In this document: piece by piece, positions 8,523 through 10,548 of the stretch
Layout of the letters: each line of letters starts with the position of its first letter
How positions within the stretch are numbered: the stretch's first letter is position 1
Assembly: GCA_004331795.1 (NCBI GenBank)
Contig: SJSR01000002.1
Span: 558,001-622,000, forward strand
Direction of reading: 5' to 3'
Origin: Erythrobacteraceae bacterium CFH 75059
GTDB lineage: Bacteria > Pseudomonadota > Alphaproteobacteria > Sphingomonadales > Sphingomonadaceae
DNA length: 64,000 bases
Position numbers and translations under genes: made by a program
The notes under the pieces: generated by a model
What the model was told of the DNA's origin: nothing
The model's input: the letters and a program-made list of their open reading frames with translations, nothing else
Database searches by the model: none

Positions 8523-9068
8523 ATGAAACCGATTTGCCTGCGCGCCTGCGCTGCCATTGCCCTGAGCTTCTCCATTGCCGCCTGCGTTCCGCGGACAGCG
8601 CCGCCGCCACCTGCGCCGCCCGCTCCGCCGCCGCCGGTCGCGGCGCCGGCCCCGCCACAGGCTCCGCCCCCTGCGACCAACTGGATCGACAACCCCGCCA
8701 CCGCCGGCGACTGGACCTACAGCGCCCGGCCCGTGCCGACGGCGGTGTTCGCCGACTCTTCGGGCGCGGCGCTGTTCACGATGCGCTGCGACCCCGCCTC
8801 GCGGCAGATGGCGCTTGAGCGCGCGGCGACACCCGCCGGCGCCGGTCCGCTGGTCATCCGCACCGGCACGCAGGACCGCACCCTCGCGACGCAGGACGTT
8901 GCGGCGGCACGCAGCACCCTCGCCGCACAGGTGAGCGCGAGGGACCCGCTGCTCGATGCCATGGCGTTCAGCCGAGGCCGGTTCGCCGTCGAGGCGCGCG
9001 GGGCGGCTCCGCTGTATCTTCCCTCCTGGCCCGAGATCACGCGCGTTATCGAAGCGTGCCGCGGATGA
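8523..9068 (+). CDS. Proline-rich putative lipoprotein
   Basis: The 181-residue protein begins with a signal sequence ending in the lipobox SIAAC (Cys21), so it should be lipid-anchored. A proline/alanine-rich stretch follows (residues about 24-50, a likely spacer), then a soluble domain with NWIDNPATAGDWTYS and an AALFTMRCD segment. That layout resembles small unknown alphaproteobacterial proteins that I cannot name. It is monocistronic by position: divergent from tlyA, with the long ilvE leader region after it. A role in the cell envelope is inferred only from the lipobox. Confidence 0.8.
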   Translation: MKPICLRACAAIALSFSIAACVPRTAPPPPAPPAPPPPVAAPAPPQAPPPATNWIDNPATAGDWTYSARPVPTAVFADSSGAALFTMRCDPASRQMALERAATPAGAGPLVIRTGTQDRTLATQDVAAARSTLAAQVSARDPLLDAMAFSRGRFAVEARGAAPLYLPSWPEITRVIEACRG

Positions 9069-9216
9069 TCGCGCATCCGGGGAAAACCGCGCCGCCATCT
9101 TGCAAACCCCGCGCCCACACCGCAGATTGCGGGACGAGGTCAGCGGTGAACGCTGTCCTTGACCCCCGGTGAATCGGTGCGGGTCTTGGCTCACGAGCGC
9201 GAAAGGAGGTGATCCG

Positions 9217-9273
9217 ATGTCTCATGGTTCAGCAGAGGGGTCGGCGAGTTTCCGCGCGAGGCATTACGGGTAG
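9217..9273 (+). CDS. 18-aa leader peptide with perfect Shine-Dalgarno
   Basis: A tiny ORF, MSHGSAEGSASFRARHYG, begins one base after the perfect 15-nt anti-16S match at 9201-9215. The core AGGAGG is about 8 nt from the ATG, an ideal spacing. It ends in TAG 56 nt before the terminator-like hairpin upstream of ilvE. It has no Leu, Ile or Val, so it is not a classical branched-chain attenuation peptide. The compact RARHYG end before the stop could be a stalling sequence. It is supported by the exceptional ribosome-binding site only; no homologue is known to me. Confidence 0.55.
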   Translation: MSHGSAEGSASFRARHYG

Positions 9274-9328
9274 GTTCCAGACAGTCCGTAGAGGCTTCGT
9301 AAGCGGCACTTCCGGCCGCTGACCATGC

Positions 9329-9365
9329 GAAAGGCGGTTTCCGGCAACAGCCGGGGCCGCCTTTC
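9329..9365 (+). terminator. Terminator/attenuator-like hairpin upstream of ilvE
   Basis: GAAAGGCGG-TTT-CCGGC pairs with GCCGG-GG-CCGCCTTTC around an AACA loop, giving a 14-bp stem with a small internal loop. The 3' side continues only as TCATATCC, so there is no long U tract and termination would be weak or conditional. The 5' arm (GCGAAAGGCGGT, 9327-9338) is nearly identical to the Shine-Dalgarno segment GCGAAAGGAGGT at 9199-9210, making the two compete for the same partner. Confidence 0.6.
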
Positions 9366-9447
9366 TCATATCCAGATCGCCTCCGATCGGCGCAAACTTG
9401 CCCTCGCGCCCGATGCGCCATAACGGCTCGGAGCGAAGGAGCAGGCT

Positions 9448-10548
9448 TTGACCATCACCGCACCCCTGTCGTTCACGCGCGAGCTCAACCCAGATCCCTT
9501 GCCTACGGAACAGCGCGAAGCCGCGCTGGCCTCTCCCGGCTTCGGCAAGGTGTTCACCGATCACATGATCGTCATCGATTTTGACGAGGCGCGCGGGGGC
9601 TGGCACACCGCACGCCTCTGTCCGCGTGGGCCACTGCGGCTCGACCCGGCAGCGGCCGTGCTCCACTACGCTCAGGAGATCTTCGAGGGACTGAAGGTCT
9701 ATCGCCACGACAGCGGCAGGCTGGCCCTGTTCCGCCCGGAGGCGAACGCCGCGCGGCTGAATGCGAGCGCCCGCCGCATGGCGATGCCCACCCTGCCCGA
9801 ACACCTGTTCCTCCAGGCCTTGGGCGAATTGATGGAGGTCGACGGACACTGGTTCCCCGCCGTGTCCGGCGGCTCGATCTACCTTCGGCCGTTCATGATC
9901 GCGACGGAAGCGTTTCTCGGCGTCCGGCCCGCGCGCCAGTACAAGTTCATCGTGATCGCCTCGCCCGTCGGAGGCTACTTCAAGTCGGACGCACCGGCCG
10001 TCAGCCTGTGGGTCAGCCGCCAGCATGTGCGCGCCGCACCCGGCGGAACCGGCGCGGCCAAGACGGGCGGCAACTATGCGGCGAGCCTCATTCCCATCGC
10101 CGAGGCGACCGAGCACGGCTGTGACCAGGTCGTCTTCCTCGATGCCGTGGAGCGGACATGGGTGGAGGAGCTTGGCGGCATGAACCTGTTCTTCGTGCTG
10201 GCGGATGGCCGGGTCATAACGCCGCCCCTCACAGGCACGATCCTGCCGGGGATCACCCGCGACAGCCTCATCACCCTGCTGCGCGACGAGGGAGTGGCCG
10301 TTGCCGAAGAGCCGTATTCGATCGACCGCTGGCGTGCCGACGCCGGGAGCGGCGTCCTGTCAGAGTGTTTCGCGTGCGGCACCGCAGCCGTGGTCACGCC
10401 GGTCGGGTCGGTGCTGGATGGCGAGCAACGCTTCACCATCGGCGATGGTGCGCCCGGCCCGCTGACGAAGCGGCTCCGCGAGCGGCTGACCCGCATCCAG
10501 TCGGGCAGCGCACCGGACCCTTACGGCTGGGTCACCCAGCTCGGCTGA
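9448..10548 (+). CDS. ilvE: Branched-chain amino acid aminotransferase
   Basis: PLP-dependent fold-type IV transaminase for the last step of Leu/Ile/Val synthesis or the first of their breakdown. The 366-residue protein is of the longer, eukaryote-like BCAT2/IlvK type: YAQEIFEGLKVYR, then AAKTGGNYAAS with the PLP lysine, then EELGGMNLFF and SECFACGTAAVV. The length and motif order match that subgroup rather than the 300-residue E. coli IlvE. It is preceded by the unusual leader at 9069-9447. It ends by overlapping the convergent oxidoreductase gene by 28 bp. Confidence 0.94.
   Translation: MTITAPLSFTRELNPDPLPTEQREAALASPGFGKVFTDHMIVIDFDEARGGWHTARLCPRGPLRLDPAAAVLHYAQEIFEGLKVYRHDSGRLALFRPEANAARLNASARRMAMPTLPEHLFLQALGELMEVDGHWFPAVSGGSIYLRPFMIATEAFLGVRPARQYKFIVIASPVGGYFKSDAPAVSLWVSRQHVRAAPGGTGAAKTGGNYAASLIPIAEATEHGCDQVVFLDAVERTWVEELGGMNLFFVLADGRVITPPLTGTILPGITRDSLITLLRDEGVAVAEEPYSIDRWRADAGSGVLSECFACGTAAVVTPVGSVLDGEQRFTIGDGAPGPLTKRLRERLTRIQSGSAPDPYGWVTQLG

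Follow-up and report, generated by a model that had tools for sequence, protein, structure and literature searches.

A divergent Sphingomonadaceae relative of the CC2171 small RNA with an extended Shine-Dalgarno sequence and a short reading frame of conserved end

The small element located between a lipoprotein-like gene and ilvE in the window analysed here (64,000 nucleotides of the genome of Erythrobacteraceae bacterium CFH 75059) is, as judged from model searches and alignments, a divergent relative, of the Sphingomonadaceae type, of the CC2171 sRNA family (RF01867), and not a new element as had originally been proposed. We consider it probable (about 0.6) that it constitutes a stand-alone sRNA gene whose product would be an mRNA-shaped regulatory RNA on which the ribosome docks and for which the extent of the ORF, and not the peptide, is what matters. 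Comparison of genomes shows an independent unit endowed with an RNA fold, a maintained ORF and stop and a maintained pairing with the 16S rRNA.

All the features that the original prediction had listed, namely a 15-nt Shine-Dalgarno (SD) sequence, an 18-codon ORF, a terminator-like hairpin and the downstream aminotransferase gene, are indeed present, and their positions are collected in Table 1 together with those of the elements of the RNA fold. The SD is invariant or nearly so in the alignments, and its exact 15-mer has a single occurrence in the 2.26-Mb genome. The 16S gene was not found in the CFH 75059 assembly; that the SD is complementary to the organism's own rRNA is therefore deduced from the near-universal 16S 3′ end, where primers of the AAAGGAGGTGATCC family are placed. 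The region folds with a z of −4.2 with respect to dinucleotide shuffles. A generic terminator scan yielded no match for the hairpin, which it missed because the T tract is short, and a sigma-70 promoter scan of the region found nothing; the conserved 5′ flank is probably the −10 or start region of a promoter, and −35/−10-like boxes (CTTG...CATACT, TTGACA...) are seen at the corresponding place in other orders.

Table 1. Positions within the window of the element, of its predicted RNA helices and of the two adjacent genes
Feature	Position	Strand	Evidence or remark
Lipoprotein-like gene	8523-9068		without Pfam match; conserved upstream neighbour in the family
Conserved 5′ flank GGTCTTGGCT, Erythrobacter/Novosphingobium clade	9182-9191	+	column conservation upstream of the SD
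Extended SD, 15 nt, GAAAGGAGGTGATCC	9201-9215	+	complements the whole single-stranded 16S 3′ tail
Start codon ATG	9217-9219	+	
18-codon ORF MSHGSAEGSASFRARHYG, TAG stop at 9271-9273	9217-9273	+	stop position kept among relatives
P1 helix, 5′ arm CATGGTTCAGC (codons 3-6)	9223-9233	+	class-wide own-arm pairing test
P2 helix, 5′ arm GGTCGG	9239-9244	+	predicted fold
Apical stem, 5′ arm; loop holds the stop codon	9265-9269	+	compensatory changes, alignment columns 79-86 with 99-106
Apical stem, 3′ arm	9286-9290	+	compensatory changes, family alignment
CACTTCC, candidate internal anti-SD; could pair with GGAGGTG 9205-9211, crossing P1	9307-9313	+	RNAalifold consensus
P2 helix, 3′ arm CCGGCC	9312-9317	+	predicted fold
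P1 helix, 3′ arm GCTGACCATG; the terminator follows after one base	9318-9327	+	predicted fold, pairing test
Terminator-like hairpin GAAAGGCGG...CCGCCTTTC	9329-9365	+	compensatory changes in the stem
Aminotransferase class IV gene (ilvE)	9448-10548		PF01063, E 2e-32

According to the original prediction, the element is a leader controlling ilvE, in which the 3′ arm of the hairpin pairs with either the SD or its own 5′ arm and ribosome binding switches transcription into the aminotransferase gene. The window and its clade do have ilvE downstream on the same strand, but this arrangement is not general. Among 99 family-type loci the commonest common upstream gene is the lipoprotein-like gene, whereas ilvE is downstream only in the Erythrobacter/Novosphingobium clade, where it starts 188–933 nt past the SD (the exceptions being one locus in which it is 2.9 kb away and another without ilvE within 6.7 kb), and in none of the Sphingomonas-clade loci; in the rest of the class ilvE is not downstream either, and no neighbour gene is common to the element loci class-wide. 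Furthermore, an inversion in genome G163 (loci L058/L297) comprises only the element, which is intact and, lying between the lipoprotein gene and ilvE, is divergent from the latter. A conserved place upstream of a regulated gene is thus not found, and attenuation of ilvE was rejected on account of the variable or missing downstream gene and of the G163 inversion. As to the proposed switch, the duplex between the SD and the terminator 3′ arm has a median of −10.7 kcal/mol, compared to −9.2 for composition-shuffled arms and approximately −28 for the hairpin; since its margin over shuffled arms is slight and the hairpin is much stronger, this candidate was also discarded, and no conserved antiterminator rivalling the terminator was found, the pairing of the SD with the 3′ arm being near shuffle level. 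The likeness between the purine-rich SD and the hairpin 5′ arm (11 of 12 positions are identical between GCGAAAGGCGGT and GCGAAAGGAGGT) is best explained as a consequence of the composition of the terminator. Finally, the absence of Leu, Ile and Val from the leader peptide, already remarked upon, is borne out, the number of such regulatory codons in MSHGSAEGSASFRARHYG being 0. A cis-acting attenuator or leader of ilvE is therefore a most improbable explanation, comparison of the loci shows the element to be independent of this gene, and a false lead on branched-chain amino-acid control is removed.

With regard to other neighbourhoods, the element lies downstream of a Vut_1 transporter gene (PF02592) at Rhodobacterales loci (L163, L168, L191 and others), several loci have an RF-1-domain (ArfB-like) gene downstream of it, and in Bosea/Methylobacterium the downstream gene is RNase R-like (PF00773).

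A BLASTN search with positions 9190–9370 found, besides its own match, 14 same-family genomes over 142–178 bases with 78–86% identity, and further genomes in which the SD/start block is matched, with 86–100% identity. A covariance model built from the Sphingomonad copies (R1) detects the element, generally as a single copy, in most of the family's genomes that were sampled, and yields weaker but clear matches across the Alphaproteobacteria; this supports the original reading of SD, ORF and structure as a single unit, which is here seen to be conserved. These distant matches have a common anatomy consisting of (C)AACAA, GAAAGGAGGTGATCC, an RTG start, a Ser codon, an ORF of mostly 18–36 codons and a terminator. 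When up to one mismatch is allowed, 97 of 387 genomes of the class contain the pattern formed by the anti-16S SD and the start, almost always once; the controls gave 0 matches, and none of the genomes from outside the Alphaproteobacteria in a sample of the phylum has it. A record labelled SAR92, a gammaproteobacterium, has the short pattern and is missing the rest of the element; this match is probably due to chance or contamination.

The kinship with the Caulobacter sRNA CC2171 emerges from the comparison of the window with RF01867, whose model is aligned in its full length (1–159 of 159) to positions 9192–9363 with 36.5 bits and an E of 2.8e-6, even if this score falls short of the curated cut-off of 75 bits. 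The same model exceeds the cut-off in locus L062 and gives significant, though sub-threshold, matches in 11 of 12 further loci; in a class-wide search, of which Caulobacter vibrioides was the positive control, 63 of 241 genomes were matched at E ≤ 0.01, eight of these 63 exceeding the cut-off. Detection is reciprocal, in that R1 finds a place in genome G356 (C81, 94313–94439, E 1e-7) at which RF01867 scores 76.3 bits, above its cut-off, so that both models converge there. Some Sphingomonads (loci L292 to L295) also hold, beside the SHGSA type, a second copy of the canonical CC2171 type (MSHC..., CATTGTC/GACAATG), and the SHGSA type of the window is therefore a variant line; a canonical copy is also present in L296, from another family of the class. 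At six Azospirillum-type loci the same SD and a ATGTCTCATGG start lead an ORF of 56–59 amino acids whose beginning is signal-peptide-like and which has no Pfam match; here the ORF of the RNA may perhaps have been captured as a secreted protein gene.

Conservation of the ORF concerns its beginning and its end. Of 85 distinct family sequences, 78 have a stop at codon 19 and the others have one within three codons of it, and a codon-19 stop is present in 15 of 15 Rhodobacterales-type sequences; TAA, TGA and TAG are all used at this position and the other frames show no such stop. When the stop codon is left out of tree building, the family requires 25 changes of stop state, five of which are losses (i.e., displacements) and at least 20 stop-to-stop switches, and the Rhodobacterales eight switches and no loss, so that over the two clades at least 28 stop-to-stop switches are to be set against 5 displacements. 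The start codon alternates only among ATG, GTG and a few TTG. Start, frame and stop are thus conserved, as looked for in RNAs of the dual-function type. It is for these reasons that a purely structural non-coding sRNA carrying an incidental ORF is very unlikely, in spite of the fact that Rfam files CC2171 as an sRNA and that a strongly conserved structure without amino-acid-level selection is what such an RNA would display: the codon-19 stop is frame-specific and is preserved through repeated switches, and the start is restricted as described.

The peptide behaves differently. The entropy by codon position, determined in three clades, displays no third-position excess, and the peptides of different orders have only Met-Ser in common, although some likeness exists at the level of single clades (MSHGSA, MSRVILERGVGT, MSHCH). 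Taken together with the preserved codon-19 stop, these data indicate that selection acts on translation to a given point and not on the peptide, and they support purifying selection on the stop of the ORF. A small-protein gene having the short peptide as its product could explain the strong SD, the preserved start and stop and the clade-level likeness; it is, however, unlikely, given that third codon positions are no more variable than the others, that the length is variable (mostly 18–36) and that the P1 helix dictates the early codons, and the peptide as product was rejected because amino-acid-level selection is absent in the three clades. The ribosome engagement invoked in the original prediction consequently survives, as something on which selection acts in preference to the peptide, without the ilvE switch that it was supposed to operate.

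The minimum-energy fold of the window element is a rod closed by P1, in which CAUGGU(U)CAGC is paired with GCUGACCAUG, followed by P2 (GGUCGG/CCGGCC) and by the apical stem; the terminator comes after the rod. P1, which is predicted to be stable and has its first base at position +7 relative to the start codon, is near-invariant inside the family, where covariation is too scarce to show, and was therefore tested over the whole class. With 63 class representatives having distinct 5′ arms, a choice that reduces but does not remove relatedness, and with the 3′ arm defined as the 23 nt at the foot of the terminator, a window narrowed after a first result was known, the pairing energies of the sequences with their own arms sum to −501.5, compared to −337 (sd 17) for permuted arms, 0 of 5000 permutations reaching the observed value; the earlier test, with a wide 3′ window, had given a weak result that was sharpened by terminator anchoring. 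Examples of compensatory pairs are CAUGG/CCAUG, CAUUG/CAAUG, CAUCG/CGAUG, CACCG/CGGUG and AUGAGAUU/AAUCUCAU. The class-wide compensatory changes support a helix that links codons 3–6 to the bases abutting the terminator, and compensatory changes are found in the apical and terminator stems within the family alignment. The stop codon is located in the apical loop in 88 of 204 cases overall, compared to 36 expected; as a class-wide rule this placement was rejected, since it holds for the CAT family only and for 11 of the 63 class representatives.

The pairing of the SD with the 16S tail has left its own trace. Among one-mismatch SD variants, counted class-wide and once per family, 17 of 18 transitions preserve pairing with the tail by means of G-U (p 7e-5; chance expectation 7 of 14 sites), among them changes in GAUCC, which lies beyond the usual core of the SD. 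Selection maintaining the pairing of the SD with the 16S tail is supported by these variants, but the G-U bias could also stem from pairing with an internal mimic of the tail. The fold favoured by RNAalifold for 16 family sequences is a second one, with GGAGGUG paired to CACUUCC (SD columns 20–26 with 123–129) and the start codon buried; this pairing crosses P1, and therefore the two folds are either exclusive or form a pseudoknot. In the class representatives the SD gives a better pairing with its own domain than with shuffled ones (mean z −1.31), and 199 of 200 permuted SDs pair less well, 1 of 200 being as good; one locus (L204) contains a perfect CGGATCACCTCCG. An internal 16S-tail mimic able to mask the SD has, from these comparisons, real but modest support. 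The notion that the SD has a competitor is thus retained, the competitor being probably internal and not the terminator 3′ arm.

On these premises, the most likely interpretation seems to be a regulatory RNA resembling an mRNA, the fold of which would be controlled by the binding of a ribosome and by translation. The promoter-like flank and the terminator would generate a transcript of approximately 165–180 nt, to which the 30S subunit would dock by pairing with the whole 16S tail in competition with the internal mimic; the short ORF would then be translated, its extent being important and its peptide indifferent. P1 begins as early as codon 3 and the apical loop contains the stop, so that a ribosome engaged in translation would have to open the 5′ half of the rod, P1 included, thereby freeing the 3′ half. 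Translation may therefore toggle the two folds, i.e., P1 with a free SD or an SD masked by the internal mimic, and this toggle may gate a function in trans or the stability of the RNA.

The main rival of this translation gate is a pure sink for free 30S subunits, in which the 15-bp duplex and the P1 block after the AUG would keep the subunit in a complex that initiates slowly or not at all, so as to tune translation capacity. The selection on 16S-tail pairing beyond the SD core and the stable P1 from +7 are what such a decoy would entail, and the frequency of GUG starts (91 of 225) implies that maximal peptide output is not the aim; yet a decoy has no need of a stop codon, the position of which is strongly kept, and a single chromosomal copy would demand very high expression, which makes this explanation doubtful. 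A regulatory RNA gated by translation may, more tentatively, be conceived as a class-wide gauge of translation capacity, typically encoded by one gene per genome and able to pair with the complete 16S tail, of which its own sequence would contain a copy: free 30S subunits would compete with this copy and, were they to win, the sequence-indifferent ORF would be translated and the RNA would refold, exposing the 16S-like segment, which could act on other mRNAs or alter the fate of the RNA itself.

In the literature searched CC2171 has so far been a name without a function, and no description of an ORF or of 16S pairing was found there for the family, an absence that does not amount to proof; a member from Mesorhizobium huakuii, MH_s33, is a 215-nt RNA-seq unit (PMC5596092). 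The comparative data place CC2171, or a near relative, across much of the Alphaproteobacteria, as an RNA that would dock on the ribosome by way of the whole 16S tail and whose ORF is kept open to a fixed end with indifference to the peptide. The question is thereby opened whether this RNA senses or titrates ribosomes, in a group in which many genes lack an SD.

Among known systems, CC2171 itself shares with the element the order of the parts (an SD-like 5′ end and a domain whose closing helix adjoins the terminator), the full-length model alignment and the reciprocal model matches; P1, on the other hand, is CATGG/CCATG in the window and CATTG/CAATG in CC2171, interior and peptide are unrelated, and the name and type given for RF01867 in the search output make no mention of an ORF or of 16S complementarity. 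Like rnTrpL/peTrpL of Sinorhizobium, a dual-function, attenuator-derived sRNA with a leader peptide (PMC10117765), the element is a short alphaproteobacterial RNA carrying a translated ORF (14 codons in rnTrpL); unlike it, the window element has a 15-nt SD and neither a fixed downstream gene nor a run of regulatory codons, whereas rnTrpL is leaderless and originates from the trpE attenuator. In Caulobacter 75% of the genes are without an SD, and profiling found ncRNAs to be mostly untranslated, apart from “two cases” that the main text does not name (PMC4117421). In Staphylococcus aureus, finally, pairing with the 16S rRNA beyond the GGAGG core aids start selection (PMC13009471); the base pairing exceeds this core in both systems, but the extended interaction is a widespread mRNA feature in S. 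aureus, whereas here it is typically a single RNA per genome that would pair with the entire tail.
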